The notes under the pieces: model-generated
Seen by the model: only the letters and a program-made list of their open reading frames with translations
The model's database searches: none
What the model was told of the DNA's origin: nothing
Translations under genes and position numbers: made by a program
DNA from: Rhodocyclales bacterium
Lineage (GTDB): Bacteria > Pseudomonadota > Gammaproteobacteria > Burkholderiales > Rhodocyclaceae
Length of the DNA: 64,000 bases
Direction of reading: 5' to 3'
NCBI GenBank assembly: GCA_016235165.1
Contig: JACRLX010000001.1
Span: 1 to 64,000, forward strand
In this document: positions 1,654 to 63,200 of the stretch, piece by piece
Position numbering within the stretch: the first letter of the stretch is position 1
Layout of the letters: every line of letters begins with the position of its first letter

Positions 1654-2794
1654 CGCGAATGCCGATCAGTCGCCGTGCCGCCAGCGCCGACTCTTGAACC
1701 CGGCGCGCATCCTCGCCGATGACCGTGAAATGCCCCATCTTGCGACCCGGTCGCGCGTGGTGCTTGCCATAGAGATGCAGCTTGAGCTCGGGCACCGCCA
1801 GCAACCGCGCCCAGTCGGGCTCGTGGCTGTGCTGCGCATCCTTCTGGAACCAGAGGTCGCCAAGCAGGTTCACCATCACCGCCGCGGAGCGGGCGCGGGC
1901 ATCCCCGAGCGGCAGGCCGGTGATCGCGCGTACCTGCTGCTCGAACTGGTTGGTAACGCAGGCATCGATGGTGTAATGCCCCGAGTTGTGCGGCCTGGGC
2001 GCCATTTCATTGACCAGCAACTGGCCGCGCACGACGAAAAACTCGACCGCCAGCGTGCCGACGTAATCCATCTTCCGCGCAATACCCTCGGCAATCTCCT
2101 CGGCATTGCCGGCAAGGCAGCCGGAGCAGCGCGCCGGCACGATGGAGACATCGAGGATGCCATGGCGATGGCTGTTCTCCACGGTCGGAAAACATTTCAC
2201 CCGCCCCGCCGCATCCCGCGCCAGGACGACGGAAACCTCGTAGTCCAACGGCATCAACTGCTCCAGCACGCAAGGCTCGTTCTTCAACTGGCGGAAAGCG
2301 GCGCGCGCGGCAGCGCGATCGGCGACGCGCACCTGGCCCTTGCCGTCATAGCCAAAGCGCGCCACCTTGAGGATGCCGGGGAACAGCCCGGCGCTCGCCG
2401 CGTCGAGATCGGCATCGCCGCGGATGTCGGCAAAAGCCGCGTGGGGGAAGCCATGCCGGCGCAGGAAGCCTTTTTCGGCGCTGCGATTCTGGCTGATGCG
2501 CACCGCCTCCGCACCCGGCCGCACCGGCACGAACTTGGAAAGATAGGCCAGGCTGTCGGCCGGCACGTTTTCGAATTCGGTGGTCACCGCCGCGCAGGAT
2601 TCGGCTATCGCATCGAGCGCATCGGCATCGTCATAGGCCGCCGCCAGATGGCGGTCGGCGATGCGTCCGGCAGGGCTTTGCGGATCAGGATCGAGCACCA
2701 CCACGCGGTAGCCCAGCTCGTGCGCGGCAATGACGAAGAAACGGCCCAACTGGCCGCCGCCCAGCATGCCCAGCGTGGCGGGAGGCAAAATCAT
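1646..2794 (-). CDS. purK: 5-(carboxyamino)imidazole ribonucleotide synthase PurK
   Basis: ATP-grasp enzyme that carboxylates AIR to N5-CAIR in purine synthesis. 382 residues, normal for the family. GMLGGGQLGR lies at residues 9-18, TTEFENVP follows in the N-terminal half, and the ATP-grasp core contains VARFGYDGKGQ, VEFFVV and NEMAPRPHNSGHYT. I start at the ATG at 2792-2794, which matches the conserved N-terminus and lies 4 bp after the purD stop; an upstream in-frame extension to 2938 would run into purD. A copy of the dispersed 22-bp repeat (1671-1692) encodes part of the last 15 residues. Confidence 0.93.
   Translation of the reverse strand: MILPPATLGMLGGGQLGRFFVIAAHELGYRVVVLDPDPQSPAGRIADRHLAAAYDDADALDAIAESCAAVTTEFENVPADSLAYLSKFVPVRPGAEAVRISQNRSAEKGFLRRHGFPHAAFADIRGDADLDAASAGLFPGILKVARFGYDGKGQVRVADRAAARAAFRQLKNEPCVLEQLMPLDYEVSVVLARDAAGRVKCFPTVENSHRHGILDVSIVPARCSGCLAGNAEEIAEGIARKMDYVGTLAVEFFVVRGQLLVNEMAPRPHNSGHYTIDACVTNQFEQQVRAITGLPLGDARARSAAVMVNLLGDLWFQKDAQHSHEPDWARLLAVPELKLHLYGKHHARPGRKMGHFTVIGEDARRVQESALAARRLIGIRDE
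1671..1692 (-). repeat. Dispersed 22-bp repeat, copy a
   Basis: On the minus strand it reads AGTCGGCGCTGGCGGCACGGCG, 20 of 22 matches to the consensus. It lies inside the purK C-terminus (about residues 368-375) and is read as ESALAARR, a different frame from the copies in ksgA and the ubiH-like gene. Confidence 0.6.
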
Positions 2795-2798
2795 TGCG

Positions 2799-4079
2799 TC
2801 AGCGCTTGATCGCCCGGAAGCCGATGTCGCGCCGGCACTGCATGCCGTCGAAACTGATCTGGTCGAGGACTTCGTAGGCGCGCTTCTGCGCAGCCTTGAC
2901 GTTGTCGCCCAGCGCCGTGACGCAGAGCACGCGGCCACCGGCGGTGACTACTTCGCCGGCCTTCTCTGCGGTGCCGGCATGGAACACGTGGCTGTCCTCG
3001 GTGCGCGCGGGCAGGCCGTGGATCACGTCGCCCTTGCGCGGCGTGTCGGGGTAGTTGGCGGCCGCCATCACCACCCCCAGGGCAACGCGTCGATCCCATT
3101 CGGCCTCGACCTGATCGAGGCGGCCGTCGATGCCGGCATCGATCAGCTCGACGAAATTCGACTTCAGCCGCATCATGATCGGCTGCGTTTCCGGGTCGCC
3201 GAAACGGCAGTTGAACTCCAGCACGCGCAGGCTGCCGTCGGGCTTGATCATCAGGCCGGCGTAAAGGAATCCGGTGTAGACGATGCCGTCGGCGGCCATG
3301 CCGTTGATGGTCGGCATGATCACCTCGCGCATGACGCGGGCGTGGATCTCCGGCGTCACCACCGGCGCCGGCGAATAGGCGCCCATGCCGCCGGTATTGG
3401 GGCCCTGGTCGCCGTCCCTGAGCCGCTTGTGGTCCTGGCTGGTGGCCATCGCCAGGGCGTGGCGGCCATCGGCCATGACGATGAAGCTGGCCTCCTCGCC
3501 ATCGAGGAACTCCTCGATCACCACCCGCGCGCCGGCCTCAGTGTGGTGCACGGCGAGCTTGTTGTCGGCAAGCATCATGTCGACCGCGGCATGCGCCTCG
3601 GCCAGATCCATCGCCACCACCACGCCCTTGCCAGCGGCCAGGCCGTCGGCCTTGATCACGATCGGCGCGCCTTCGGCATCGAGGTAGGTGTGCGCCGCCG
3701 CGACGTCGGAGAAGGTCTGGAACTTCGCCGTCGGGATCTTGTGCCGGGTCATGAAGCGCTTGGCGAAATCCTTCGAGCTTTCGAGCTGGGCCGCCGCCTT
3801 GGTCGGGCCAAAGATGCGCAGGCCGCGGGCGCGAAAGACATCGACGATGCCGGCGGCGAGCGGCGCTTCGGGCCCCACCACGGTGGCATGAACCTTTTCC
3901 CTCGCCGCCCAGTCGGCCAGCGCCTCGATGTCGCTCAACGCCAGGTTTTCCAGCTCGTGCTCGCGCGCCGTGCCGGCATTCCCCGGCGCGACATAAACCT
4001 TTTGCAGTCCGGGCGACTGCGCCAGCCTCCACGCCAGCGCGTGCTCGCGCCCGCCCGATCCGACGACGAGTATTTTCAT
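2799..4079 (-). CDS. purD: Phosphoribosylamine-glycine ligase PurD
   Basis: Joins glycine to phosphoribosylamine with ATP to give GAR, the second step of de novo purine synthesis. 426 residues, the usual length. It opens [19 protein letters not shown] (N domain) and has [12 protein letters not shown], the ATP-grasp segment [17 protein letters not shown], and [15 protein letters not shown] followed by [21 protein letters not shown] carries metal ligands. Only 4 bp separate it from both purH upstream and purK downstream, so purH-purD-purK form one unit. Confidence 0.96.
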
Positions 4080-4083
4080 GGCA

Positions 4084-5691
4084 TCAGTGGCGGAAATGGC
4101 GGAAGCCGGTGAATACCATGGCCAGGTTCTGTTCGTCAGCGGCGGCGATCACTTCCGCGTCGCGCACCGAGCCACCGGGCTGGATCACCGCCGTGGCACC
4201 GGCCTTGGCCAGCACGTCGAGGCCATCGCGGAAGGGGAAGAAGGCATCCGAAGCCACCACCGAACCGGCGACGGTGAGGCCGTTGTTTTCGGCCTTGATC
4301 GCGGCAATGCGCGCCGAGTCGACGCGGCTCATCTGGCCTGCGCCGACGCCCACCGTCATGGCGTCCTTGCAATACACGATGGCGTTGCTCTTGACGTACT
4401 TGGCGACGCGCCAGGCGAACAGCAGGTCCGCCATCTCCTGCGCGCTCGGCGCGCGCTTGGTCACCACCTTGATATCGGCCTGGGTGATGCGCGCGTCGTC
4501 GGCGCTTTGCAGCAGCAGGCCACCGCCGACCCGCTTGTAATCGAAGACGGCGCCGGCAAGCTTGCCCGCATTTGCCAGCATGGGCACCACCAGTACGCGC
4601 AGGTTCTGCTTGGCGGCGAACACGGCGCGCGCCTCGGCGGTGATTTCGGGGGCGATGATCACTTCCGCGAACTGCCCGGCCACGGCTTCCGCCGTCGCCT
4701 TGTCGATGGCGACGTTGAAGGCGATGATGCCGCCGAAGGCCGAGGTCGGATCAGTCTTGAAGGCCTTGCGATAGGTCTCCAGGGCATTCGCGCCGACCGC
4801 CACGCCGCAAGGATTGGCATGCTTGACGATGACGCAGGCGGCCGGCGCGATAGCGGCGTCGAAGGCCTTGACGCATTCCCAGGCCGCATCGGCATCGGCG
4901 ATGTTGTTGTAGGACAGTTCCTTGCCCTGGATCTGCTGGTAGCTGGCGATGCTGCCCGGCACCGCGAGGTTGCCCGCCATGGTCTCGCGATAGAAGGCAG
5001 CCTGCTGGTGCGGGTTCTCGCCGTAGCGCAGGGTCTCCACCTTGTCGAAGGCGAGTTGCAGCCTGTCGGGGAAGACGCCGGGCTTGTTCTCGGCGTCAAG
5101 CGCAGTCAGCCAGTTGGCGATTGCCGCGTCGTAGCGCGCCGTGTGCGTGAAGGCCTTCTTGGCCAAGGCAAAGCGCGTCTTGTATGACAGGCCGGCGCCG
5201 GCCTTCAGTTCCTCCAGCACCGGCGCGTAGTCCTCCGGGTCGGTGATAACGCCGACGCCGCCCTGCTCGTTGCCGTGATTCTTGGCCGCTGCCCGCACCA
5301 TGGTGGGGCCGCCGATGTCGATGTTCTCGATGGCGTCGTCCAGCGTGCAGCCGGGCTTGGCCACCGTCTCGCGGAAGGGGTAGAGATTCACCACCACCAG
5401 GTCGATCGCCGGAATGCCGTGCTGCGCCATCACCGCCTGGTGCTCGGGCAGGTCGCGGCGACCGAGGATGCCGCCATGCACCTTGGGATGCAGGGTCTTG
5501 ACGCGACCGTCGAGCATCTCGGGAAAACCCGTGTAGTCGGAAACATCGGTGACGTCGAGCCCGGCGTCGCGCAGCAGCTTGGCGGTGCCGCCAGTGGACA
5601 GGAGCTTGACCCCGAGCTGGGCCAGGCCGCGGGCGAAATCGACCGCGCCGCGCTTGTCGGAAACGCTGAGCAGCGCTTGTGTGACTTTCAT
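4084..5691 (-). CDS. purH: Bifunctional AICAR transformylase/IMP cyclohydrolase PurH
   Basis: Catalyses the last two steps of IMP synthesis. 535 residues. The N-terminal MGS-like cyclohydrolase domain opens with [18 protein letters not shown], followed by [11 protein letters not shown] and HGGILGRRD. The transformylase half carries the conserved [22 protein letters not shown] and the C-terminal [12 protein letters not shown] and [11 protein letters not shown]. It follows dusB and fis (16-bp gap to fis) and precedes purD. Confidence 0.96.
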
Positions 5692-5707
5692 GGGAACCTC
5701 GCAGGGA

Positions 5708-5938
5708 TTAAAGCAGTTTGTGTTCGACCAGCATGCGGCGCAGTGTGCCGCGGCTGATGCCCAGCATCTCGGCGGCGACGGTTTGGTTGCCGTCGGCCTG
5801 CTTCATTACGACCTCCAGCATCGGGCGCTCGACGGACTTCAGCAACATGTCATAGATGGCGTGCGGCGCCTGGCCGTCGAGGTCGCGGAAATAGCGATTC
5901 AGGCTGCGCCGCACGCAGTCGTGGATTTCGCTGCTCAT
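5708..5938 (-). CDS. fis: Fis family DNA-binding protein
   Basis: A 76-residue Fis-type nucleoid protein and regulator. The C-terminal helix-turn-helix spans about residues 50-72 ([20 protein letters not shown]), the recognisable Fis/NtrC-type HTH. The N-terminal part is shorter than the 98-residue E. coli Fis, as is usual in betaproteobacteria. Its ATG overlaps the dusB stop (ATGA, 5935-5938), the classic dusB-fis coupling. Confidence 0.93.
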
Positions 5939-6957: not shown

Positions 6958-7052
6958 GTCGGGAGGGAAAGGGAGCGTTTCGCGGAGGGCGCGATTTTAG
7001 CGCAAAGCGTCCGCCCGGATATCGACGCTATTTATGGCAACCGGCCGCCGGA

Positions 7053-8246
7053 TCAGGGCCAGGCGCGGGCGCCGAAGATCATTCGCCGGGCAACAAAACC
7101 GCGCAGCGGCGGCAAGATATCCATGGCCAGCAGGCCGGCGCCGCGCAGCGTCCGCAGCGGCCCGAACTCGTTGCCGAAGCCGTGGATCAGCAGGTCGGTA
7201 AAACCGATGGCACCGCTTCGGTCCGCCACCCGCCCGCGGGCATAGGCGGCAAGCAGTTCCGGCGCACCGGGATCATCAGCGCCACACAAGCTCGTGGCAA
7301 GCTCCCAGATGTCGCGCAGGGCCAGGTTGAAACCCTGGCCCGCAACCGGATGCAGGGTCTGCGCGGCGTTGCCCAGCCAGACCTGGCGCGCTCCGACCGG
7401 GTGCGGACGATAGCGCAGGCCAAGCGGGTAGGCCACGCGTGCTGTCGCGGTCAGGAAGCGATGACGCGTGCCGAAGCGGCGTTGCAACAGGGCGAGGAAT
7501 TCCTCGTCATCGAGCGCGCGTACCCATTCCAGAATCTCGTCCTTGCAGGTCAGCACCACCGAATAGCGATCGCCCAGCGGCAACAGCGCCAGCGGGCCTT
7601 CGTCGGTGAATCGTTCCCAGGCCACATTGTGGTGCGGCTCGGCGGTTTCGACATTGCACAGTACCGCATGCTGCCCGTAGTCACGCCGCCTGGCAGCCTC
7701 GGCATCCACCATGCCCTCGGCGTAAGCGGTCAGGGCGAAATTCGCCGTGTCGCCAGCGCCGACTTTGGTCCGCTCCCGGTAGGGAATTCCGGCCCGCGAC
7801 AAGGCCTTGTCCAATGCGGCAACCACCTCGCTCGCCGCCACCACCCAACCCAGGGCCGCCACACCCTGTTCCTCGGCGCGGATCAGGGTGCGGCCAAATC
7901 CGCTGCGCTGGGAAACATGGATGCTGCGGATGGCGGTCGCCGCCTTGGCCGGCCAGGCACCGAGCCAGCCCAGAATCTGGCGCGCGCCCTCGGACAAGGC
8001 AAGCACGCGGGCATCCTTGCGCACCGCGTCGCGCTCGCGCGCTTCGAAAATTTCCGCCTCCAGCCCATGCAGCCGCAAGGCCAGCGCGAGCGCCATGCCG
8101 GTCGGCCCACCGCCGACAATGGCAACGGGGCTACGCCCGCTGCCATTGCCAATAAATTGAGAGCCATCCCCCCGCCCCCCTTCCCGAGGAAGGGGGTGAC
8201 TGGCTTGGCTCGCTGCGCTCGCGAAAGGTTTAGCCGCCGCGGGCAT
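7053..8246 (-). CDS. UbiH/COQ6 family FAD-dependent monooxygenase
   Basis: Probable aromatic hydroxylase of ubiquinone synthesis. The Rossmann motif VAIVGGGPTGMALALAL begins near residue 41, and the second FAD motif is WLGNAAQTLHPVAGQGFN, close to the UbiH-family GDAAH...P..GQG..N form. The middle has RDYGQHAVLCNV, as in bacterial UbiH. 397 residues. The only usable start is the ATG at 8244-8246, inside the end of pepP, giving about 40 extra residues before the FAD motif. These include PLPREGGRG, encoded by a REP-like hairpin. A dispersed-repeat copy encodes KVGAGDTA at about residues 160-168. Which hydroxylation step it performs cannot be told from sequence alone. Confidence 0.82.
   Translation of the reverse strand: MPAAAKPFASAASQASHPLPREGGRGDGSQFIGNGSGRSPVAIVGGGPTGMALALALRLHGLEAEIFEARERDAVRKDARVLALSEGARQILGWLGAWPAKAATAIRSIHVSQRSGFGRTLIRAEEQGVAALGWVVAASEVVAALDKALSRAGIPYRERTKVGAGDTANFALTAYAEGMVDAEAARRRDYGQHAVLCNVETAEPHHNVAWERFTDEGPLALLPLGDRYSVVLTCKDEILEWVRALDDEEFLALLQRRFGTRHRFLTATARVAYPLGLRYRPHPVGARQVWLGNAAQTLHPVAGQGFNLALRDIWELATSLCGADDPGAPELLAAYARGRVADRSGAIGFTDLLIHGFGNEFGPLRTLRGAGLLAMDILPPLRGFVARRMIFGARAWP
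7743..7764 (-). repeat. Dispersed 22-bp repeat, copy b
   Basis: On the minus strand AGTCGGCGCTGGCGACACGGCG, 21 of 22 matches to the consensus and preceded by ACCAA as in copy g. It lies inside the ubiH-like gene and is read as KVGAGDTA. Confidence 0.7.
8161..8227. repeat. REP-like hairpin at the ubiH N-terminus
   Basis: A perfect 9-bp stem with a 3-base loop lies at 8176-8196 (CCCCCTTCC / GGAAGGGGG). It is flanked by GAGCCA (8161-8166) and TGGCTC (8205-8210), which are also complementary. It falls within the first 30 codons of the ubiH-like gene and encodes SHPLPREGGRGDG, a peptide typical of translated REP-type palindromes. Confidence 0.5.
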
Positions 8247-9582
8247 CGCGCATCAGGGCTTCGATGTCGGCGATTTTCCTGGGCGCCTCGGCGGTGATGA
8301 TCTCGCATCCGCCCGCCGTCACCACCGCGTCGTCCTCGATGCGCACGCCGATGTTCCAGAAGGCCTCGGGCACGTCGGCGGCGGGGCGCACATAGCAACC
8401 GGGCTCGATGGTCAGGACCATTTCAGGGGCCAGCGGCGCCCAGTGCTCGCCCTGCTTGTATTCGCCGGCATCGTGCACGTCCTTGCCCAGCCAGTGGCTG
8501 GTGCGGTGCATGTAGAAGCGTTTGTAACTTTCGGATTCGAGCACGGCGTCGAGCGAACCGGCAAGCAGCTTCATGTCGATCATGCCCTGCGCTAGCACCT
8601 TCAGCGCCGCGTCGTGGGGATCGGCAAAGTTGGCGCCGGGACGCACCGCCGCGATCGCCGCCGACTGGGCATCGAGCACCAAGTCATACACATCCGCCTG
8701 CGGGCCGCTGAAGCGGCCGCCGACGGGGAAGGTCCGGGTAATGTCAGAAGCATAACCGCCGAGCTCGCCGCCGGCATCGATCAGCAGCAGGTCGCCGTCG
8801 CGCAACACCTGGTCGTTGCCGACGTAGTGCAGCACGCAGGCGTTGGCACCGCCGGCCACGATGGGGGTGTAGGCGGGGAATTCACAGCCATGGCGACGGA
8901 ACTCGTGCAGCAACTCGGCCTCGACCTCGTATTCGTAGCGGCCGGGCGTGGTGAAGCGCATCGCGCGGATATGCGCACCCGCCGAAATCCGCGACGCGCG
9001 CCGCATGATCTCAAGCTCCTGCCCATCCTTGACCAGGCGCATCGCATCGAGCTCGGCGCGCACGTCACGGATCGCCGCCGGCGCGCGCTTGCCGCTGCGG
9101 GATTCGCCTCGCACCTTGTTGAGCGCGGCGGCGACGCGGGCATCCCAGGCGGCATCATGGCCGATCGAGAACCAGAGTGCCGGCTGGTCGGCGATCAGTT
9201 CCGCCAGCTTGGCGTCGAACTCGGCGATCACGTGTGCCGCCTCGAAAGCAAAGCGCGCGCGCGCGCCGTCCGGGCCGTAACGAAAGCCATCCCAGATTTC
9301 GCGCTCGGCATTCTTTTCGCGGCAGAACAGGATCGATCTGGATTCCGCGGCATCGCGCCCAGCAACCAGGAGCAGCGCCGCCTCGGGTTCGCTGAAGCCG
9401 GTCAGGTACTGGAAGTAACTGTCGGCACGATAGGGGAACTGGGTGTCCCGATTGCGCGCCATTTCCGGCGCGGTGGGAATCAGCGCAACGCCACCGCCGG
9501 CCTGGCGCATGCGCTCGGCGAGCAGAAGTCGGCGCCGGTGATACGGCGACGGCGCGTCCGTCACTAAGGGCTGGCTGTCCAT
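8230..9582 (-). CDS. pepP: Xaa-Pro aminopeptidase PepP
   Basis: Cytoplasmic dimetal peptidase that releases N-terminal residues preceding proline. 450 residues. The N-terminal AMP_N domain includes FPYRADSYFQYLTGFSEPEA. The pita-bread catalytic domain carries LLIDAGGELGGYASDITRTF (two metal aspartates), the histidine loop HRTSHWLGKDVHD, TIEPGCYV and a final GVRIEDD. I start at the ATG at 9580-9582, whose product begins MDSQPLVTDAPSPYHRRR. The gene overlaps the ubiH-like start by 17 bp, the usual pepP-ubiH arrangement, and lies 7 bp after murU. Confidence 0.93.
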   Translation of the reverse strand: MDSQPLVTDAPSPYHRRRLLLAERMRQAGGGVALIPTAPEMARNRDTQFPYRADSYFQYLTGFSEPEAALLLVAGRDAAESRSILFCREKNAEREIWDGFRYGPDGARARFAFEAAHVIAEFDAKLAELIADQPALWFSIGHDAAWDARVAAALNKVRGESRSGKRAPAAIRDVRAELDAMRLVKDGQELEIMRRASRISAGAHIRAMRFTTPGRYEYEVEAELLHEFRRHGCEFPAYTPIVAGGANACVLHYVGNDQVLRDGDLLLIDAGGELGGYASDITRTFPVGGRFSGPQADVYDLVLDAQSAAIAAVRPGANFADPHDAALKVLAQGMIDMKLLAGSLDAVLESESYKRFYMHRTSHWLGKDVHDAGEYKQGEHWAPLAPEMVLTIEPGCYVRPAADVPEAFWNIGVRIEDDAVVTAGGCEIITAEAPRKIADIEALMRDARGG

Positions 9583-9589
9583 CGGCCGA

Positions 9590-10285
9590 TTATAGCGAGC
9601 GCAGTTCGTCGTCCAGCGCGCGCAGGCGCTCCGGCGTGCCGACATCCACCCAGCGGCCGCCATGCAGTTCGCCGGAAGCGCGGCCGCTGGCCATCGCCAT
9701 GCGCAGCAGGGGCGCCAGCTTGGCCGGCTGACCGCGACCGACAGCGGCAAACAGTTGGGGACGATAGATGCCGATGCCGGCGAAGGTAAGCATCTCGCCG
9801 CGGCCAGCAAGGGCCGCGCAGTCCACGCCAAGCACGTTGCCATGCAGGCAGAAATCGCCGCCGGGATGTTGCGGCGGATTGGGCACCATCACCAGGTGCG
9901 CCAGCTTGTTTGCCGTCAGGCTGTCACGGGCGCCGGAGGGTAACCAGTCGCAATAGATATCGCCATTCAGCACCAGGAAGGGGGCGTCCGCGCCGAGCAG
10001 CGGCAGGGCATTGGCGATGCCGCCCGCCGTTTCCAGGGCTCCGGGCGGCTCCGCCGAGTAGGCGATGCGCAGGTTCCAGGCGGCGCCGTCGCCGAGCAGG
10101 GCTTCGATCTGCCCGCCGAGGTGGGCGTGATTGATGACGATGTCTACGAAGCCGGCCGCCGCCAGCCGCTCGATGTGCCACACGATCAGGGGACGTCCGC
10201 CCACCGGCAGCAAGGGCTTGGGCGTGTGATCGGTCAGCGGCCGCATCCTCTCGCCGCGGCCGGCGGCGAGAATCATGGCTTTCAC
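9590..10285 (-). CDS. murU: N-acetylmuramate-1-phosphate uridylyltransferase MurU
   Basis: Nucleotidyltransferase that turns MurNAc-1-phosphate into UDP-MurNAc, bypassing de novo synthesis and fosfomycin-sensitive MurA during peptidoglycan recycling. 231 residues. The signature LAAGRGERMRPLTDHTPKPL lies at 6-25, with LETAGGI and FLVLNGDIYCDW for metal and nucleotide binding. Coupling to amgK by a 4-bp overlap supports MurU over other sugar-1-phosphate nucleotidyltransferases. Confidence 0.9.
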   Translation of the reverse strand: MKAMILAAGRGERMRPLTDHTPKPLLPVGGRPLIVWHIERLAAAGFVDIVINHAHLGGQIEALLGDGAAWNLRIAYSAEPPGALETAGGIANALPLLGADAPFLVLNGDIYCDWLPSGARDSLTANKLAHLVMVPNPPQHPGGDFCLHGNVLGVDCAALAGRGEMLTFAGIGIYRPQLFAAVGRGQPAKLAPLLRMAMASGRASGELHGGRWVDVGTPERLRALDDELRSL

Positions 10286-11313: not shown

Positions 11314-11386
11314 GTGCGTGCCATCCGCGCCGCGCGAAAACACGCAAGAACTCAGTCGGAGAGCGCGTTCCACAGGGTTGAGGTGA

Positions 11387-16524: not shown

Positions 16525-17330
16525 GCCGGGTCGACGGGCACGATGCCCGCCGTCGCTTCGGCCAGAACTTCCTCGTCTCCGACGGCGTCATTCGCAAGAT
16601 CATCGACGCCATCGCCGCCCGGGCCGACGACACCGTGGTCGAGATCGGCCCCGGGCTGGGCGCCCTGACCGCGCCACTGCTGGAGCGCGTCGCGCAACTG
16701 CATGTGGTCGAAATCGATCGCGACCTGATCGCGCGCCTGCGCCAGCGCTTTCCGCCCGAACGCCTGCGGATCCACGAAGGCGACGCGCTCGAATTCGACT
16801 TCGCCGCGCTCAAGGGCGAGGGCCGCCTGAAAATCGTCGGCAACCTGCCCTACAACATCTCCAGCCCCCTGCTGTTCCATCTGGTGCGCTATGCCGCTTT
16901 GGTCTGCGACATGCACTTCATGCTGCAAAAGGAGGTCGTCGATCGCATGGTCGCCGTGCCGGGCAGCAAGGATTTCGGCCGCCTGTCGGTGATGCTGCAA
17001 TACCGTTTCCACATGGAACGCCTGTTCGTCGTTCCCCCCGGCTCCTTCAATCCGCCGCCCAAGGTTGATTCGGCCATCGTGCGCATGATTCCGATCGACT
17101 TCGCAAAAGTCGGCGCTGGCGATACGGCGAGCGATGACTCGCTGTTTGCCAAGGTGGTGGCTAATGCCTTCTCGCAACGGCGCAAGATGCTGCGCAACAC
17201 CCTGCGCGAGTTTTTTACCGAGGACGAAATCGCCGCGCAGGGCATCGCGCCCACCGCGCGCGCCGAAGATCTGGCCGTTGCCGACTATGTGCGTCTCGCC
17301 AACCGGCTGGCCGAACGTGGGCCACGCTGA
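16521..17330 (+). CDS. ksgA: 16S rRNA dimethyladenosine transferase KsgA/RsmA
   Basis: Dimethylates two adjacent adenines near the 3' end of 16S rRNA late in 30S assembly. 269 residues. The SAM motif is [12 protein letters not shown], then VEIDRDL, and the catalytic NLPY in [12 protein letters not shown]. The C-terminal domain has [14 protein letters not shown] and [16 protein letters not shown]. Between them, at about 196-203, it reads KVGAGDTA, encoded by a perfect copy of the dispersed 22-bp repeat. It falls in a loop that is variable in the family, so function should survive. Confidence 0.95.
17108..17129 (+). repeat. Dispersed 22-bp repeat, copy c (matches consensus exactly)
   Basis: AGTCGGCGCTGGCGATACGGCG, 22 of 22, preceded by GCAAA as in copy h. 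It lies inside ksgA and is read as KVGAGDTA. Confidence 0.75.
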
Positions 17331-19956: not shown

Positions 19957-19975
19957 ACCTAAGTCACAGAGGCCA
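19957..19975. repeat. Left 19-bp direct repeat (att-like)
   Basis: ACCTAAGTCACAGAGGCCA, identical to 22807-22825. Flanking bases differ on both sides, so the match is exactly 19 bp. Confidence 0.7.
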
Positions 19976-19995
19976 CCGTCGCCCCAGCGCCGACT
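19974..19995 (-). repeat. Dispersed 22-bp repeat, degenerate copy d
   Basis: On the minus strand AGTCGGCGCTGGGGCGACGGTG, 18 of 22 matches. It overlaps the last two bases of the left direct repeat, at the boundary of the proposed insertion. Between here and 20237 I see no gene. Confidence 0.45.
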
Positions 19996-22715: not shown

Positions 22716-22802
22716 GATGAGTAGCGGGAATCAATTTCTGGTATCGCCGTCCCGCCAGTGCCGACTATTGACCCTGGTCGGAGTCGTTACCAGCTACTCA
22801 TC
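22716..22802. repeat. Nested inverted repeat downstream of the Schlafen gene
   Basis: GATGAGTAGC (22716-22725) is perfectly complementary to GCTACTCATC (22793-22802). Inside, CTGGTA pairs with TACCAG and CCGAC with GTCGG. Dispersed-repeat copy e sits within this foldable structure, 5 bp from the right direct repeat. It may be a terminator, an attachment-site arm, or a fuller form of the repeat element. Confidence 0.5.
22745..22766 (-). repeat. Dispersed 22-bp repeat, copy e
   Basis: On the minus strand AGTCGGCACTGGCGGGACGGCG, 19 of 22 matches, non-coding. It lies near the right end of the insertion, as degenerate copy d does at the left end. Confidence 0.55.
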
Positions 22803-24887: not shown

Positions 24888-24909
24888 AGTCGGCGCCGGC
24901 GACACGGCG
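24888..24909 (+). repeat. Dispersed 22-bp repeat, copy f
   Basis: AGTCGGCGCCGGCGACACGGCG, 20 of 22 matches. Non-coding, in the 71-bp gap between the convergent PilZ and prlC genes. Confidence 0.65.
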
Positions 24910-27054: not shown

Positions 27055-27819
27055 CTATTCGACCAGGTCGCGGTAGGCGTGGAAACTGGCGTGGCCGAGC
27101 CAGGGCAGGAACAGCACCAGGCCGACCAGCGCGGTGGCAAAGCCGAGACCCGTCAGCAGCATCAGGATGAAGGCCCACAGCGCCAGCGGCAGCGGGTTCT
27201 CGGCCACGGCATTGATGCTGGTGGAAAGCGCGGTCAGCAGGTCGCAGCGACGGTCGACCAGCATCGGCATCGACACCACGCTGAGGGCGAACACCAGCGC
27301 GGCAAGAAAGCCGCCGGCGCAGACGTAAACGAAGAACAGCAGGTAGTGCTGCGGATTCACGATTACCTCGACCATCATGGCCATTGGCGCCATGGCCGGG
27401 CCCTTGTAGAACAGGGCGACGATCACCACCGAGGCGACCTGCCAGGCGGTGCCGGCAAGTATCGACAGCAGCGCGAAGCCCACCAGTCCGGAAGGATTGC
27501 GCCGCCAGGCGAACATGGAATCGACCAGGACCGCCGGCTCGCCGGCCAGGTAGCGGCGCGAGAGTTCGTAGAGGCCCGCGGCCAGCATCGGTGCCACCAG
27601 CAGGAAGCCGGTGATCGCCGCGGCAAACAGGTAGGGCAGGCTGGCGGTAATGCCGAGGATCACCGCCCCCGCAACCGCTGTCGCGACGCCATAGAACAGG
27701 CTGGCCGCAGGCTGCCGCCAGAGATCCTTCCAGCCGCGCGCCAGCCAGGCCAGGGGCGCGGCGAATCCGACCTGGCGCACCTGGACCAAAGTCGGCGCTG
27801 GCGATACGGCGTCTTGCAT
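27055..27819 (-). CDS. DUF2189 integral membrane protein
   Basis: 254 residues with about six hydrophobic segments, including AGAVILGITASLPYLFAAAI, GFLLVAPMLAAGLYELSRRY, YLLFFVYVCAGGFLAALVF and LWAFILMLLTGLGFATALVG. The pattern and the motif RRNPSGL fit DUF2189. Residues 3-10 are encoded by the antisense reading of a perfect dispersed-repeat copy (AVSPAPT). It starts 15 bp after purC. Function unknown. Confidence 0.8.
   Translation of the reverse strand: MQDAVSPAPTLVQVRQVGFAAPLAWLARGWKDLWRQPAASLFYGVATAVAGAVILGITASLPYLFAAAITGFLLVAPMLAAGLYELSRRYLAGEPAVLVDSMFAWRRNPSGLVGFALLSILAGTAWQVASVVIVALFYKGPAMAPMAMMVEVIVNPQHYLLFFVYVCAGGFLAALVFALSVVSMPMLVDRRCDLLTALSTSINAVAENPLPLALWAFILMLLTGLGFATALVGLVLFLPWLGHASFHAYRDLVE
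27790..27811 (+). repeat. Dispersed 22-bp repeat, copy g (matches consensus exactly)
   Basis: AGTCGGCGCTGGCGATACGGCG, 22 of 22, with the same ACCAA before it as copy b. It overlaps the first codons of the DUF2189 gene, which is read from the other strand. Confidence 0.75.
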
Positions 27820-33039: not shown

Positions 33040-36200
<3,161 letters not shown>

Positions 36201-41548: not shown

Positions 41549-41570
41549 CGCCGTATCATCAGCGCCGACT
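41549..41570 (-). repeat. Dispersed 22-bp repeat, copy h
   Basis: On the minus strand AGTCGGCGCTGATGATACGGCG, 20 of 22 matches, preceded by GCAAA as in copy c. It fills most of the 35-bp gap between cbbQ and cbbO. Confidence 0.65.
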
Positions 41571-48567: not shown

Positions 48568-49296
48568 ATGATACCGAGGTTTTTCTGTCCCTTTCCGCTA
48601 CACCCCGGCGCGGTTGTCGAGCTTACCGCCGACGCGACCCACCATGCCCTGAAAGTCCTGAGAGTCGGCGCCGGCGACACGGCGATTCTGTTCGACGGGT
48701 GCGGCGGACAATGGCGCGCGAGCCTCCATCCCGCCGGCAAGAGCCTGCGCGCGACGCTGGACAGCTTCGAAGACATCGATTGCGAACCTCCGCTCGACCT
48801 GACCCTGGTGCAAGCGCTGCCAGCCAGCGACAAGATGGATTTCGTGGTGCAAAAGGCGGTCGAGCTCGGCGTGCGGCGCATTCAGCCGGTGGCGGCAAGG
48901 CGCAGCGTGATCCGGCTCACCGGCGAACGCGCCGAGCGCCGGGTCGAGCATTGGCGCAACGTCGCCATCGCCGCCTGCGAGCAATCCGGGCGCAACCGGG
49001 TTCCCGCCGTCGCGCCGATTCTTGATCTGCCGCAATACCTTGGCATGGCCGCGCAGCAAAATGGAATGCGCCTCGTCTGCGCTCCGGGGGTTGCCGCCCG
49101 CCTGCGCGACTTGGGCGTTCCCGAAGGGCCGGTCAGCCTGCTGGTCGGACCCGAGGGTGGTTTCGAGGAAGGCGAAATCCTGGCAGCGCGCGCCGCCGGT
49201 TTCCATGCCATTGGCTTGGGGCCGCGGGTACTGCGCACCGAAACGGCCGGATTGGGCGCCGTGGCGGCAATGATGGCACTTTGGGGAGATTGGTGA
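48568..49296 (+). CDS. rsmE: 16S rRNA m3U1498 methyltransferase RsmE
   Basis: SPOUT methyltransferase of the 30S decoding region. 242 residues from the ATG at 48568. The PUA-like N-terminus has HHALKVLRVGAGDTAILFDG, and the SPOUT core has QALPASDKMDFVVQKAVELGV, LLVGPEGGFEEGE and the C-terminal LGPRVLRTETAGLGAVAAM knot. The stretch RVGAGDTA (32-39) coincides with a repeat copy, but families often have a similar GxGD there. Its stop overlaps the ppk2 start by one base. Confidence 0.94.
   Translation: MIPRFFCPFPLHPGAVVELTADATHHALKVLRVGAGDTAILFDGCGGQWRASLHPAGKSLRATLDSFEDIDCEPPLDLTLVQALPASDKMDFVVQKAVELGVRRIQPVAARRSVIRLTGERAERRVEHWRNVAIAACEQSGRNRVPAVAPILDLPQYLGMAAQQNGMRLVCAPGVAARLRDLGVPEGPVSLLVGPEGGFEEGEILAARAAGFHAIGLGPRVLRTETAGLGAVAAMMALWGDW
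48663..48684 (+). repeat. Dispersed 22-bp repeat, copy i
   Basis: AGTCGGCGCCGGCGACACGGCG, 20 of 22 matches, identical to copy f. It encodes RVGAGDTA in rsmE, where a similar motif is natural, so this copy could be convergent. Confidence 0.45.
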
Positions 49297-53440: not shown

Positions 53441-54115
53441 TCAGCGCTGGAAAGTCTGCACGCCGTGCGGACTTGCCAGCAACAGCAGGTCGGCGCCGCG
53501 CAGGGCAAACAGGCCGTTGGTGACGACGCCGACGATCTGGTTGATGACCTGCTCCATACCGGCCGGGTCGGTAATCGACAGGCCATGCACGTCGAGGATC
53601 AGGTTGCCGTTGTCGGTCACGAAGCCCTCGCGCAGCCTGGGTGCGCCGCCGAGCTTTTGCAGTTCGCGCGCCACGTGGGCGCGCGCCATGGGGATCACTT
53701 CGACCGGAAGGGGAAAGCGCCCCATGACCGGCACACGCTTGGACGCATCGCAGATGCAGACAAAGGTTTCCGCCACGGCGGCAACGATTTTTTCGCGCGT
53801 CAATGCACCGCCACCGCCCTTGACCATCGCCAGGCCGTGATCGATCTCGTCCGCGCCATCGACATAAATTCCCATGGCATCGATGTCGTTGAGGTCGAGG
53901 ACCCGGATGCCGTGGCCGGCCAGGCGCTTGGCGGTGGCTTCCGAACTGGCGACGGTGCCCCCCAGCCGCCCCTTGATCGCGGCGAGCTCGTCGATGAAAA
54001 AATTCGCCGTGCTGCCAGTGCCGACTCCCAGGATCGCGCCTTGCGGCAAGCGATCGGCCACGTAATCGCGGGCGGCCCGTGCCACCGCCTGCTTCAGTTC
54101 GTCTTGGGTCATCAT
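53441..54115 (-). CDS. rpiA: Ribose-5-phosphate isomerase A
   Basis: Interconverts ribose-5-P and ribulose-5-P, feeding both nucleotide synthesis and the Calvin cycle. 224 residues. [16 protein letters not shown] at 30-45 (phosphate and substrate site), [20 protein letters not shown] with the active-site Asp, and the C-terminal [17 protein letters not shown]. It lies 56 bp downstream of phoU's start on the same strand; no operon partner is clear. Confidence 0.95.
54005..54026 (-). repeat. Possible dispersed repeat, copy m
   Basis: On the minus strand AGTCGGCACTGGCAGCACGGCG, 19 of 22 matches. It encodes GVGTGSTA in rpiA, which is a conserved active-site motif, so this match may be chance. Confidence 0.3.
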
Positions 54116-54212: not shown

Positions 54213-54252
54213 CGTACTTAATTTCAGTACGATCGCACCTGTTATCAGTACG
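54213..54252 (+). promoter_or_regulatory. Probable operator upstream of the HTH-nucleotidyltransferase gene
   Basis: CGTACT-N7-AGTACG is a perfect inverted repeat (54213-54231), and a third AGTACG lies at 54247-54252, 15 bp before the GTG start. Three spaced half-sites suggest binding by the product's own HTH domain. Confidence 0.5.
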
Positions 54253-54267
54253 ACTACAGCCTGCTTC

Positions 54268-55289: not shown

Positions 55290-55503
55290 TCATGTCGAGC
55301 TCGATCGCCGTTTCCACGCCGCCGCGCTTGATAGCGACAGCGAAACCACGGCGCTCTTGAGCTACGCCGCGTCATGGAATCAGCTTGAGGCCGGGCTGCC
55401 GTGGACGGAGGTACTGAGCCATCGCCTTGTCGTGATACTGGGGGAGCCCGGCAGCGGGAAGACCGCGGAATTCAAGGCCCAAGCCAGATCGTCGGGCTTC
55501 CGG
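55282..55503 (+). pseudogene. Stump of a large P-loop NTPase
   Basis: An ATG at 55282 starts MADHVELDRRFHAAALDSDS, and Walker A GEPGSGKT lies at residues 54-61, followed by AEFKAQARSSGFRLFL. This resembles the N-terminus of large STAND/NACHT-like NTPases seen in defence loci. The homologous part ends where the lpdA stop codon begins (55504); the frame runs on into antisense lpdA to 55710. Everything beyond the P-loop is lost, apparently by a deletion ending at lpdA. Confidence 0.5.
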
Positions 55504-57309
55504 CTATTTCTTCCGCATCGGCGGCAGGTCGGTGCAGGAACCGTGGGCGACTTCGGCCGCCATGCCTATGGTTTCGCCCAGGGTCGGATGGGGGTGGATG
55601 GTCTTGCCAATATCTACTGCGTCGCAGCCCATCTCGATCGCCAGCGCCACTTCGCCGATCATGTCGCCGGCGTTGGGACCGACGATGCTGCCGCCGATAA
55701 CGCGGTGTGACTCCTCATCGAACACCAGCTTGGTGAAGCCGTAGTCGGCGCCGTTGGCAATGGCGCGGCCGGAGGCGGCCCAGGGAAACCTGGCGACGCT
55801 CACTTTGCGCCCGGCTTTCTTCGCCTCGTCCTCGCCGACGCCGACCCAGGCCACTTCGGGATGGGTGTAGGCGACGCCGGGAATCACCGTCGCGTCGAAA
55901 TGCGCCTTCTGGCCGGCGGCGGCTTCGGCGGCGACGTGGGCCTCATGCACCGCCTTGTGCGCCAGCATCGGATTGCCGACGATGTCGCCGATGGCGAAAA
56001 TGTGCGGGATGTTGGTGCGCATCTGGCTGTCGACCGGGATGAAGCCGCGGTCGCTGACAGCCACGCCTGCCTTCTCGGCGCCGATCTTTTTTCCGTTCGG
56101 CGCACGGCCGGCGGACTGCAAAATCATGTCGTAGCGCACGGCTTCGGCCGGCGCCTTCTCACCCTCGAATTTCACCCACAGGCCATCGTCCTTCGCCTCG
56201 ACGGCGACGGTCTTCGTCTTCAGCATGACCTGGTCGAAGCGATGCAGGTTCTGCTTTTCCCAGACCTTGACCAGATCCCGGTCCGGCCCCTGCATCAGGC
56301 CGTCGAGCATCTCGACCACGTCCACCCGGGCGCCCAGCGTCGAATACACGGTGGCCATTTCGAGGCCGATGATGCCGCCGCCGATGACCAGCATTTTCTT
56401 TGGCACCTGCCGCAGCTCCAGCGCTCCGGTGGAATCGACGATGCGCGGATCCCTCGGAATGAAGGGCAGGTGAAAGGCCGCCGAGCCGGCGGCAATGATG
56501 CACTTCTGGAAGCGCACCACCTTTTTGGCGCCGGTCTTGTCCTGCGCGCTGCCCGTGGTCTCCTCGACCTCGATGTGGTTGGCGTCGAGGAAATGGCCGT
56601 AGCCGCGCACGATCTCGACCTTGCGCGCCTTGGCCATGCCGGCCAGCCCGCCGGTGAGCTTGCCGACCACCTTTTCCTTGTGCTTGCGCAGCTTGTCGAT
56701 GTCGACTGCCGGCTGAGCGAAGCTGACGCCGAGGTCGCCGGCGTGCTCCACCTCCTCCATGACCGCGGCGACGTGCAGCAGCGCCTTCGATGGGATGCAG
56801 CCGACATTGAGGCAAACGCCGCCCAGCGTCGCGTAGCGCTCGACGATCACCGTCTTCATGCCCAGGTCGGCGCTGCGGAAGGCGGCGGAATAGCCGCCGG
56901 GGCCGGCACCCAGCACCAGCATTTCGCACTCGACGTCGGCCTTGCCGGCGTATTGACCGGCGACCGGCGCAGAAGTCGGCGCTGGCGGGACGGCGGCTGG
57001 CGCGGCGGCCGGGGCCGGTACAGCGGCAACCGTCGCCGTGGCGCCGACGCCAGCGCTTTGCGTACCTGCGGCAAGCTTTATCAAAGCGACCAGCGTACCC
57101 TCGGCGATCTTGTCGCCGACCTTGACCTTCAGTTCGGTGATGGTGCCCGAAACCGGCGAGGGCACGTCCATAGTCGCCTTGTCCGATTCCAGCGTGATCA
57201 GCGCATCCTCGGCCTTGACCGTGTCGCCGGCCTTGACCAGCACTTCGATGATCGGTACGTCCTTGAAGTCGCCGATGTCGGGGACTTTCACTTCGACGCT
57301 GTCGCTCAT
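55504..57309 (-). CDS. lpdA: Dihydrolipoyl dehydrogenase with lipoyl domain (PDH E3)
   Basis: Re-oxidises dihydrolipoamide for pyruvate dehydrogenase. 601 residues: an N-terminal lipoyl domain with K44 (LESDKATMD), an Ala/Pro linker about 85-120, then the flavoprotein with GAGPGGYSAAF and the redox disulfide C166/C171 in GGVCLNVGCIPSK, and the C-terminal HPHPTLGETI with catalytic His. The linker carries a copy of the dispersed repeat. Its start overlaps the HslV-like gene (ATGA). No terminator is seen after it because the defence remnant abuts the stop. Confidence 0.95.
   Translation of the reverse strand: MSDSVEVKVPDIGDFKDVPIIEVLVKAGDTVKAEDALITLESDKATMDVPSPVSGTITELKVKVGDKIAEGTLVALIKLAAGTQSAGVGATATVAAVPAPAAAPAAVPPAPTSAPVAGQYAGKADVECEMLVLGAGPGGYSAAFRSADLGMKTVIVERYATLGGVCLNVGCIPSKALLHVAAVMEEVEHAGDLGVSFAQPAVDIDKLRKHKEKVVGKLTGGLAGMAKARKVEIVRGYGHFLDANHIEVEETTGSAQDKTGAKKVVRFQKCIIAAGSAAFHLPFIPRDPRIVDSTGALELRQVPKKMLVIGGGIIGLEMATVYSTLGARVDVVEMLDGLMQGPDRDLVKVWEKQNLHRFDQVMLKTKTVAVEAKDDGLWVKFEGEKAPAEAVRYDMILQSAGRAPNGKKIGAEKAGVAVSDRGFIPVDSQMRTNIPHIFAIGDIVGNPMLAHKAVHEAHVAAEAAAGQKAHFDATVIPGVAYTHPEVAWVGVGEDEAKKAGRKVSVARFPWAASGRAIANGADYGFTKLVFDEESHRVIGGSIVGPNAGDMIGEVALAIEMGCDAVDIGKTIHPHPTLGETIGMAAEVAHGSCTDLPPMRKK
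56974..56995 (+). repeat. Dispersed 22-bp repeat, copy j
   Basis: AGTCGGCGCTGGCGGGACGGCG, 20 of 22 matches. It lies in the lpdA linker and is read antisense as AAVPPAPT (105-112). Confidence 0.55.
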
Positions 57310-59251: not shown

Positions 59252-59254
59252 GGC

Positions 59255-61930: not shown

Positions 61931-62092
61931 GACTTCTCCTCGTCTGATGGTGAGCGTCGCCGGGAGATCGTCCCGTCGACGTCCTGCTCGTCACGCCACG
62001 GATGCGTCGCAGGGATCGGCCTGCAAGGCAGCATCCACAACGTTTTTCTTTCGCAGCATAGACCGGAATGATGTTTGGGCGATCTGCGAGTG

Positions 62093-62127
62093 TTGCGCAT
62101 TGTAAAACGCTTATTCACAATGCGCAA
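62093..62127 (-). promoter_or_regulatory. Palindrome upstream of aceE
   Basis: TTGCGCATTGT-N13-ACAATGCGCAA, perfect 11-bp arms, lies 163-197 bp before the aceE start in the 266-bp gap that otherwise shows no gene. A GntR/PdhR-type or other dimeric regulator site for the PDH operon is plausible. There is no T run, so it is not a terminator of the neighbouring gene. Confidence 0.5.
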
Positions 62128-62196
62128 TAGCGGTTTTCCACAATCGGGACGAGCGGAGTCCCCGGCGGCCCGGTTCGCAAGGCAACGAATGGGATC

Positions 62197-62349
62197 TCAG
62201 TCGTCGTTGGAACGCTGGCGCAGGGACGCCTTCTGGCGGGCGCGGCTGGCGCGCTTGTCCTTGCGCTGGTGCACGCCACCCTTTTTCAGCAGGGGCAGGG
62301 TGGCCAGCGGGTTGCGCTTCGGCAAGGCCCGCAGCTTGGCGCGCTTCAT
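62197..62349 (-). CDS. Small basic protein downstream of bioC
   Basis: 50 residues, starting MKRAKLRALPKRNPLATLPL and ending in RRARQKASLR-like Lys/Arg-rich sequence. About one third of residues are basic. Its ATG overlaps the bioC stop (ATGA), so it is translated with bioC. Similar short basic proteins follow bioC in other betaproteobacteria as I recall it; function unknown. Nucleic-acid binding is a guess from charge. Confidence 0.6.
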   Translation of the reverse strand: MKRAKLRALPKRNPLATLPLLKKGGVHQRKDKRASRARQKASLRQRSNDD

Positions 62350-63200
62350 CGCGGCCGAAACTTCATTACGGCGCGGCCATCGGCGATCTGCCGCGGCTCG
62401 GGCTTCCATGCATGGCCGAAGACGATCTCGAAGCTCGCCGGCAGGCGCCCTTCCGCGTCGCGCGGCCAGGCATCGAAAATCTGCCGCCAGGTGCGCCATG
62501 ATTGCGCACCGAACAAGGCGTTGCGCACGCCGAGGTGGCGCTGGTCGGCCAGCATGCCGCGCGGCGTAGCGTAGGTCAGGGTGATCATCTCCATGTCCAT
62601 CACCGGATCGCCGAAGCCGGCGGCGACCAGCATGTCACCCAGGTCGTGCATGTCGAGGAAGCGCTTCGCCGTTGCCGGCGCGCGAAGCGCTTGCCCCGGC
62701 AGGCAAGGCCCGTCAGCGCCGACTTTTGTCGCCGCACTGCGCAGTTCCTTCAGCGTATCCGGCCCGAGTGCCGCGAAGCAAAGCAGCCCGCCCACTTCCA
62801 GCACGCGATGCAGTTCGCGGAAGGCCGGCAGGGGATCGTCCAGCCAGTGCAGCATCAGGTTCGACCAGGCCAGGCCCAGGCTGTTCGCCGCCAGCGGCAG
62901 CGCGCGTACATCGGCGTTGAGCAGGCGCGGCCCCCGCCTGAGCAGGCGCTGTGACAGCGGCGCCGCCGCACGGACCGCGCCCAGCATCGGCCGCGCATAG
63001 TCGACGGCCAGCGGCATGGCTTTCGGGTAACGCCTTTGCAGTTCGCGTATGCCGTCGCCGGTGGCGCAGCCGATGTCGGCCACGCGTGCCGGGCTCAGCT
63101 TGACGAGGTCGAGGCGCTCGGCCATGCGAGCGCCCACTTCGCGGGCAAGGACCGCCGCCGAATCGTAAGTCGCGGCGGCTTGAGCGAAGTCGCCGCGCAT
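62346..63200 (-). CDS. bioC: Malonyl-ACP O-methyltransferase BioC
   Basis: Methylates malonyl-ACP so that the fatty-acid machinery can make the pimeloyl chain of biotin. 284 residues. The SAM motif is VADIGCATGDGIRELQ near 36, then LPLAANSLGLAWSNLMLHWLDD and FAALGPDTLKELR. After TLKELRSA there is an insertion (ATKVGADGPCLPGQALRAPAT) relative to the usual loop, starting with a partial dispersed-repeat copy and followed by IDMHDLGD-type FLDMHDLGDMLVAAGF. It lies 6 bp after bioB. Confidence 0.9.
   Translation of the reverse strand: MRGDFAQAAATYDSAAVLAREVGARMAERLDLVKLSPARVADIGCATGDGIRELQRRYPKAMPLAVDYARPMLGAVRAAAPLSQRLLRRGPRLLNADVRALPLAANSLGLAWSNLMLHWLDDPLPAFRELHRVLEVGGLLCFAALGPDTLKELRSAATKVGADGPCLPGQALRAPATAKRFLDMHDLGDMLVAAGFGDPVMDMEMITLTYATPRGMLADQRHLGVRNALFGAQSWRTWRQIFDAWPRDAEGRLPASFEIVFGHAWKPEPRQIADGRAVMKFRPR
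62703..62724 (-). repeat. Dispersed 22-bp repeat, partial copy l
   Basis: On the minus strand AGTCGGCGCTGACGGG matches the consensus closely for the first 11 bases, then diverges. The upstream ACAAA also fits. It marks an insertion in the bioC loop, next to small hairpins (CTTGCC/GGCAAG at 62690-62707). Confidence 0.4.

Follow-up and report, generated by a model that had tools for sequence, protein, structure and literature searches.

The window analyzed in this study, a stretch of 64,000 nucleotides from the genome of a Rhodocyclales bacterium (contig JACRLX010000001.1), contains dispersed copies of a short, non-palindromic word of 25 letters, AAAGTCGGCGCTGGCGRNACGGCGA, which is strongly overrepresented genome-wide and probably serves as a DNA uptake sequence, i.e., as a member of the class of DNA uptake sequences (DUS) and uptake signal sequences (USS). 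This reading is preferred because several properties combine: overrepresentation, occurrence on both strands and in all reading frames, origin by substitution, decay, conservation of two blocks, dialects, and copies in contigs of a viral collection. From these sequence properties, we infer both uptake as the driving force and a receptor. A first-pass annotation of the window had described a repeat that might behave like Rickettsia palindromic elements or be an uptake or architecture signal. The latter class fits best, with uptake as the best and probable reading.

Abundance of the motif in the source genome

In the source genome of the window (G000; 4.47 Mb, 57 contigs), 569 copies with at most three mismatches were found, while the reversed pattern occurred once. 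Of the 25 11-mers listed as most overrepresented within 464 kb of this genome (at least 12 copies, order-5 model), 20 were pieces of the motif. For the comparison with synonymous-codon shuffles, positions 15-16 were ignored and up to three mismatches were accepted elsewhere. Under these settings, 67 copies were located in predicted coding sequences (CDS) of 562 kb of G000, whereas 20 shuffles gave 8.85 on average and never more than 15, and the genes within the window contained 6 copies versus a mean of 0.98 in 50 shuffles. The counts thus lie above the codon-shuffled controls, and selection at the peptide level fails as an explanation, as already stated in the first-pass annotation. With positions 15-16 ignored, the mismatch spectrum comprised 19, 33, 25, and 10 copies at 0, 1, 2, and 3 mismatches, respectively, and from five mismatches upwards the copies merged with the background.

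The dispersed repeat was confirmed in the window, where 10 copies deviated from the 22-letter form AGTCGGCGCTGGCGATACGGCG at no more than three positions, versus none in 100 dinucleotide shuffles. An Rfam scan of the window gave no match at the gathering threshold. Sampled loci of two other genomes, G002 and G048, also showed high counts of unrelated 11-mers (TAGCTCCCTCT with 15 and TAATGGACAAT with 14 copies), which point to tandem arrays or arrays resembling clustered regularly interspaced short palindromic repeats (CRISPR).

Motif anatomy and conservation of two blocks

The consensus was derived from 78 copies and consists of two conserved blocks, AAAGTCGGCGC and ACGGCG, around a variable spacer. 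Since copies were picked by similarity, conservation in such counts is inflated; positions 2, 5, 6, 18, and 19 were invariant across the 78 copies, and positions 15-16 were nearly free. The motif is bounded, as the information content did not exceed 0.18 bits at any position outside -3 to 25, and it was 0.56 bits at position -2 and 0.20-0.28 bits at positions -3, 24, and 25. The tendency towards a 5′ CAAA, already noticed in the first-pass annotation, was recovered with A in 77%, 71%, and 45% of the copies at positions -1, 0, and -2, and C in 55% at position -3. Two motif copies folded no better than shuffles (z -0.98 and -0.37), and the consensus has a stop codon in none of the six frames.

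A less biased measure was obtained from a two-species comparison of 27 sites common to G000 and G018, the nearest species from which DNA was fetched. Block positions 1-9 and 17-22 were changed in 11 of 405 cells, with the block limits drawn after inspection of the data and both copies required to have at most three mismatches (4 of 31 syntenic sites failed). In the spacer, positions 10-16 were changed in 42 of 189 cells, and the flanks, excluding those with less than 70% ungapped identity, were changed in 14.6% and 16.0%. For all 20 core positions against the flanks, a Fisher test gave p = 7e-7. Because the block cells change far less than spacer and flanks, the two blocks are held at the DNA level.

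Placement in genes, frames, and strands

Gene positions were obtained with a home-made codon-bias caller, which gives rough start positions. Among 101 copies in 562 kb of G000, 67 were located in predicted CDS, one crossed an edge, and 33 were non-coding, including the copy at 27790 despite its overlap with the open reading frame (ORF) of a DUF2189 gene; non-coding DNA made up 9.6% of the bases and was enriched in copies. The share of CDS copies was similar elsewhere (23/34 in G018, 71/105 in G002, and 62/95 in G048), with densities of 0.15-0.24 copies per kb in host genomes. As claimed earlier, the copies use both strands and more than one frame: the unoriented G000 contigs had 285 and 284 copies per strand, all six reading frames were used in G000 and G002, and G018 and G048 each used five. 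Mild peptides predominated (KVGAGDTA, RRxASADF, and KSALA types), the frame giving SRRW was rare, and the commonest frame in G000 was same-strand frame 2 (KVGAGDTA type) with 27 of the 67 CDS copies; 33 of these 67 were antisense.

The spacing of copies was irregular (coefficient of variation 1.26), and 40 kb of G000 contig 17 were without copies. Two G000 segments with a GC content of 0.633-0.644 also contained no copies. Of 21 sampled segments of G002, the two copy-free ones had low GC contents (0.534 and 0.589), but two others at 0.595-0.596 contained two and three copies.

Origin of copies by substitution

The resemblance in behavior to Rickettsia palindromic elements, proposed in the first-pass annotation, was not supported by orthologue length tests, which were performed on DNA, on proteins, and between sister species. 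On the DNA level, a motif-less orthologue was available among the compared sequences for 35 sites, giving 321 pairs to which ksgA contributed many. In pdxA and in the gene of a TIGR03862-family flavoprotein following ksgA, several motif-bearing and motif-less pairs were equal in length, while other pairs differed by +39 to +87 bp (pdxA, three distant genomes) or by 3-9 bp (flavoprotein gene). Length differences in the ksgA loop were mostly 3-18 bp, and a peak at -12 (146 pairs) was mostly due to ksgA. Ten pairs at -33 came mainly from ksgA of locus L121, which has a longer loop, and nine pairs at -24 were hairpin-bearing copies in G002 and L120. At position 9527 of the window, the site was 25 bp longer than in the L125 orthologue (one pair).

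For the protein test, an inserted unit of 22-25 bp would be expected to give a length change of -7 or -8 residues. A homologue with at least 35% identity spanning the site in non-carrier DNA was found for 39 of 200 coding copies, some alignments being poor and some sites representing one gene counted in two genomes. The modal length change was 0 in 17/39, between -5 and +4 residues in 34/39, and -7 or -8 in none. In the sister-species test, 70 of 101 G000 sites were outside the fetched G018 DNA; of the remaining 31 syntenic sites, 27 were shared, 2 were degenerate, and 2 were absent, and no clean 22-25 bp insertion was found among these 31. The reverse comparison of G018 with G000 gave 27, 2, 2, and 3 of 34. 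Because an excess of 22-25 bp gaps is lacking and pairs of equal length exist, these alignments point to an origin of the copies by substitution instead of insertion of a 22-25 bp unit, and an insertion element was rejected as a candidate. As described in the available text of PMC1626085, the same kind of test gave the same answer for the USS of Pasteurellaceae.

Distribution among genomes, dialects, and decay

In a first survey of 81 genomes, all 31 of the genus (G000 included) carried the motif with 35 to 688 copies, while the reversed pattern gave at most one match within the genus and at most three in any genome. In a family survey of 395 genomes from 68 genera, at least 100 copies were found in 55 genomes of six genera (g1, 22/23 genomes; g8, 1/1; g19, 18/19; g70, 1/1; g78, 4/4; g96, 9/9), with at most five for the reversed control. 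Intermediate counts were obtained for G084 (57), G016 (47), and G106 (29), and all other genomes had at most 18.

Beyond the six rich genera, two more have dialects: with a dialect-tolerant pattern, the counts rose to 251 in G043 and 51 in G106, while G301 and G144 stayed at 0 (87% and 79% complete, respectively). The dialects read AAANTCGGCGCTGGCGRGACGGCA in G048 and AGTTGGTGCTGGCGATACGCCG in G043, and that of G106 begins with AAGTCGACGCTGGCG. In G117, 9 of 13 dialect-tolerant matches were located on three contigs (C66, C104, and C557), suggesting foreign contigs in the bin or recent transfer.

G301 is copy-free and G016 has nearly lost the motif, while their sister genomes are rich. Within 307 kb of G016, 16 relic copies with up to four mismatches were detected (0, 1, 3, 5, and 7 at 0 to 4 mismatches) versus 1.35 expected, and none of the 25 listed 11-mers of these 307 kb represented a replacing dialect. 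Judged from these relics, decay of the motif is shown in at least this lineage. The 80 best-matching named ksgA loci were scanned as well. Of these, the closest five (with beta proteobacterium, Rhodocyclales, or Rhodocyclaceae titles) had one to seven matches with up to five mismatches, and the other 75 had at most one match each, always with five mismatches, i.e., seven in total versus ten for the reversed control. Orthologues of other genera do not carry the same bases at the sites tested.

Hairpin elements inside the motif

At some loci, the motif is interrupted by small hairpins of two families. On contig 12 of G000, at 131 kb, AAAGT and CGGCGCTGG are set apart by a 42-bp unit TATG...GGGA; in G018, the motif is uninterrupted. 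This unit folds better than shuffles (z -2.86). It represents family C (TATG, stem-loop, CGGTATCC...GGGA, with variable self-complementary stems), which occurred by itself, as tandem repeats, or exactly within the motif at L255:7217, L037:19072, and L050:7391 in G000, at L200, L202, L207, and L214 in G002, and at L227 in G016. Of the rows matched by pattern, 4/6 in G000 and 6/13 in G002 had family C inside the motif, with one motif copy degenerate. Hairpins of family B sit between motif positions 16 and 17, both in the ksgA genes of G001, G005, G015, G026, and G027 and at 62.7 kb of the window, where the motif is unbroken in G018 and G002; the ksgA motif is hairpin-free in G037 and G048. Because of the two empty-site comparisons and these plain ksgA motifs, the hairpins would have entered a pre-existing motif, which at times is thus a landing place for them.

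In G048 (L057, L064, and L069), 54-bp tandem units were observed that begin with the left half of the motif, carry an inverted near-copy, and end in a complete motif. At another locus of this genome, both arms share the same altered letters.

Copies in viral contigs

In the IMG/VR collection, at least 120 stretches matched the exact pattern with two free positions, and the reversed pattern matched none. Among 80 of these loci, one shared 129 bp with the small sample of host DNA compared, and some of the loci may be host flanks or proviruses. Beyond the retrieving copy, the density on viral contigs was 0.060 per kb (43 in 712 kb) versus 0.15-0.24 in hosts. Ten proteins from six loci included integrases, a ParB-like protein, tail protein J, primases or helicases, and an RNA ligase; two of the ten were without family. 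The contig with the tail protein J gene (L303) has five motif copies within repeats at 500-2300, with four intervals of 316 to 385 bp; the repeat ends GCCTAAC...GTTAGGC look to us like integron attC sites. A plasmid match in seven Pseudomonas records (26 letters, expect value 0.05) was taken as chance. According to the available text of PMC6776037, USS accumulate in Haemophilus phages, with the exception of very large ones that are likely lytic.

Competence genes and the proposed uptake

If the motif is an uptake sequence, a surface DNA-binding protein, probably a minor pilin of a type IV pilus, would bind both blocks during natural transformation. DNA bearing the motif would then be taken up and recombined more often, and over many generations this bias would draw near-matches closer to the consensus at all places where the protein or the spacer permits it. 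G000 has ComEC, DprA, a strong ComM-type match, and GspH- and ComP_DUS-type pilin matches, with GspH/ComP_DUS-type neighbors on contig 26 near 82 kb. On the wider scale, we tentatively propose, as a view that could fall either way, a further, independently evolved DUS system in Rhodocyclaceae with an unusually long bipartite motif of about 25 bp, several dialects, and losing lineages, in which the motif also serves as a precise landing site for hairpins, i.e., selfish DNA riding on an uptake signal.

Several observations weigh against the uptake reading. Competence families occur in carriers and non-carriers alike (ComEC in 74/81, GspH in 43/49, and ComP_DUS in 34/36 genomes), the ComP_DUS and DprA sets comprising 36 chosen genomes and the GspH and PF13541 sets 30 genomes from within the genus plus 19 from other families. 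DprA was found in 36/36 genomes, in 35 above the cut-off, the exception being G005, a genome with 681 copies (99% complete). PF13541, which we take to be the ComM-type family, was strong in 40/49 genomes, and the nine weak ones include G010 with 458 copies (99% complete). The carrier G106 has no ComP_DUS match. G016 with its 47 copies has kept ComEC and DprA as well as a match for ComP_DUS that is flanked by pilin-like ORFs, and the copy-free G301 has matches for DprA and ComP_DUS, the families examined there. Within these sets, none of ComEC, GspH, ComM-type, ComP_DUS, and DprA explained presence or loss of the motif by gene content. The competence families tested in G016 and G301 being kept, loss of the signal must therefore have another cause there, for example an altered receptor or competence that is silent. 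The family counts neither help nor exclude the uptake reading, and a receptor with changed specificity would escape them.

Placement, density, and length add to these points. Over ten bins, 223 CDS copies showed no excess at gene ends, while USS of all Pasteurellaceae are biased to gene termini as described in the available text of PMC2346458, where Neisseriae are not named; this bias is thus not a trait of the whole class. The density does not reach the value of 300 per Mb that serves to define USS-rich genomes (PMC12616744, available text), and the motif is longer than the 10-12 bp of DUS, although the H. influenzae consensus spans 29 bp. By GC skew, the lagging strand of G002 carried 55 copies and the leading strand 36 (p 0.06), in a tally of one single-contig genome sampled at 480 kb from which 14 of 105 copies, located on three segments near the origin, were left out. 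An orientation bias relative to the replication origin, suggested for testing in the first-pass annotation, is accordingly at most weak, and a strong one was not seen.

An uptake sequence of Rhodocyclaceae, or pieces of the motif in print, were not found in a literature search that covered sources other than preprints and most subscription journals. The available texts describe dedicated uptake sequences for Pasteurellaceae and Neisseriaceae, and in that of PMC4212676, on a competent member of Burkholderiales, DUS are mentioned solely as a feature of other families. If the uptake reading is true, close relatives that differ in being carriers, dialect bearers, or near-losers could be compared to map the receptor and to test whether such signals can be built by uptake drive alone. 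The reading would also predict that these environmental bacteria, here mostly represented by metagenome-assembled genomes, exchange genes by self-selective transformation.

Alternative explanations

An intracellular signal for chromosome architecture, segregation, or recombination, resembling FtsK-orienting polar sequences (KOPS), matS, Chi, or nucleoid-protein sites, would require an internal DNA-binding protein that selects many sites. The bipartite, bounded motif with its conservation at the DNA level and its spread over the chromosome would suit such a protein, as would the weak lagging-strand excess in G002 (55/91). We nevertheless regard this explanation as unlikely, given that the replication bias is at most weak, that spacing is irregular with 40 kb of contig 17 copy-free, and that copies occur in contigs of the viral collection; near-loss in G016 and absence in G301, each with rich sisters, fit a dispensable function better. 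A recurrent peptide motif or a codon bias in GC-rich DNA has a negligible probability and is refuted by the codon-shuffle control. It would account for the KVGAGDTA-type frame being the commonest, for the rsmE and rpiA copies, which fit their proteins, and for the 8.85 copies left by shuffling, but not for the 67 observed, of which 33 are antisense, nor for the 33 of 101 copies outside genes, and the 75 named ksgA loci of other genera did not exceed the level of the reversed control.

A mobile micro-element, comparable to Rickettsia palindromic elements (RPE), repetitive extragenic palindromes (REP), or miniature inverted-repeat transposable elements (MITE), could have been copied into genes and spacers, leaving near-identical copies in many frames with a consensus that is stop-free in all six. 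Also the 54-bp hairpin tandem units with the motif in G048, composite hairpin copies at several loci, and the 25 bp surplus at 9527 of the window against L125 would agree with it. However, an excess of 22-25 bp gaps is lacking, the pairs at -24 are the hairpin-bearing G002 and L120 copies, the spacer varies freely between fixed blocks, and present and absent pdxA pairs have equal length; this explanation is therefore largely refuted and quite improbable. That the motif is chiefly a landing site which receives hairpin elements or phages, and is kept by them, appears highly improbable. Family C inside the motif at several G000 and G002 loci and family B in ksgA of relatives and at 62.7 kb of the window speak for it. 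Against it, the motif is present in both species at 27/31 syntenic G000 sites, a few of them hairpin-bearing in G000, and hairpins are also found away from the motif, singly as well as in tandem.

Motif copies in the window

The copies in the window are listed in Table 1. Those reported in the first-pass annotation, including both exact ones, are present, but the copy at 9527 had been overlooked. A degenerate copy placed at 62703 does exist, yet it is a split copy on the minus strand whose first base is 62724 and whose halves are 36 bp apart, the insert being a hairpin of family B. The host genes named earlier (purK, UbiH-family hydroxylase, ksgA, DUF2189, and dihydrolipoyl dehydrogenase) all hold up. 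At the rsmE site, motif and equal length were also found in G002, G017, and G018. Membership of the rpiA copy is uncertain, and it could be protein-driven.

Table 1. Motif copies in the 64-kb window and the gene adjoining one of them; mismatches refer to the 22-letter form.
Feature	Position	Strand	Context
Motif copy, 2 mismatches	1671..1692	-	3′ end of purK, read ESALAARR
Motif copy, 1 mismatch	7743..7764	-	UbiH-family hydroxylase gene, read KVGAGDTA
Xaa-Pro aminopeptidase gene	8230-9510	-	called start rough
Motif copy, 2 mismatches	9527..9548	+	just beyond called start of Xaa-Pro aminopeptidase gene; absent from first-pass annotation
Exact motif copy	17108..17129	+	ksgA, variable-length loop, read KVGAGDTA
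Degenerate copy, 4 mismatches	19974..19995	-	outside called genes
Motif copy, 3 mismatches	22745..22766	-	outside called genes
Motif copy, 2 mismatches	24888..24909	+	outside called genes; G018 58 bp shorter at site
Exact motif copy	27790..27811	+	antisense at start of DUF2189 gene (ORF 27055-27819, -)
Motif copy, 2 mismatches	41549..41570	-	between CbbQ-like and VWA-domain genes
Motif copy, 2 mismatches	48663..48684	+	rsmE, read RVGAGDTA
Weak copy, 4 mismatches	54005..54026	-	rpiA, read VGTGSTAN
Motif copy, 2 mismatches	56974..56995	+	dihydrolipoyl dehydrogenase gene, antisense near end of N-terminal acetyltransferase-like (lipoyl) part
Split copy	62667..62724	-	bioC-like gene; left half 62724-62709, right half 62672-62667

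The region upstream of the Xaa-Pro aminopeptidase gene (about 9510-9600 of the window, about 18.8k in L106, and about 19.1k in L117) shows large interspecies indels with motif-like and hairpin sequences. Elsewhere in the window, a perfect 115-bp tandem duplication (34693-34922), whose length is not a multiple of three, splits a transketolase gene into two overlapping ORFs, whose matches to a single transketolase family model cover positions 4-448 and 412-653, respectively; it is either an assembly error or a real lesion.

Comparison with known systems

Rickettsia palindromic elements are inserted palindromic units located inside protein genes at tolerated places. The motif likewise lies at tolerated sites of genes, but unlike these elements it shows no insertion signature and no stable fold. 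REP and bacterial interspersed mosaic elements (BIME) are hairpin repeats, which families B and C resemble, some of them in tandem, whereas the motif itself forms no hairpin and is mostly genic. Polar signals of the KOPS or Chi type have a strong strand bias with replication; such a signal was not supported, as no strong strand bias was seen in G002 (one single-contig genome, 480 kb).

Published DUS and USS are located in ORFs to 65% (H. influenzae) or 35% (N. gonorrhoeae), with a non-coding excess, no orientation bias, and an origin by point mutation, as far as described in the available texts (PMC1939737, PMC1626085). The USS of Pasteurellaceae, which lack a strong orientation bias, are like the motif in being numerous and in lying for the most part in ORFs despite an enrichment in non-coding DNA (PMC1939737, PMC1626085, PMC12616744), and in having a conserved core with weaker parts, substitution origin, dialects, and phage copies (PMC1939737, PMC1626085, PMC12616744, PMC6776037). 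The 5′ end of the motif resembles the Hin consensus aAAGTGCGGT given in PMC1939737, perhaps by chance. Taxon and sequence differ, with a core of 9 bp and an AT-rich tail in Pasteurellaceae versus a GC-rich bipartite motif of 25 bp here. For the DUS of Neisseriaceae, the available text of PMC3630211 describes dialects that agree with the core-genome tree, the occurrence of motifs both within genes and in spacers, and the minor pilin ComP as receptor. The ComP_DUS Pfam matches in 34/36 genomes, being spread over carriers and non-carriers, thus do not count as evidence for a receptor here. The sequence differs from that of the Neisseriaceae DUS, but like these the motif described here has dialects and sits in genes and spacers.

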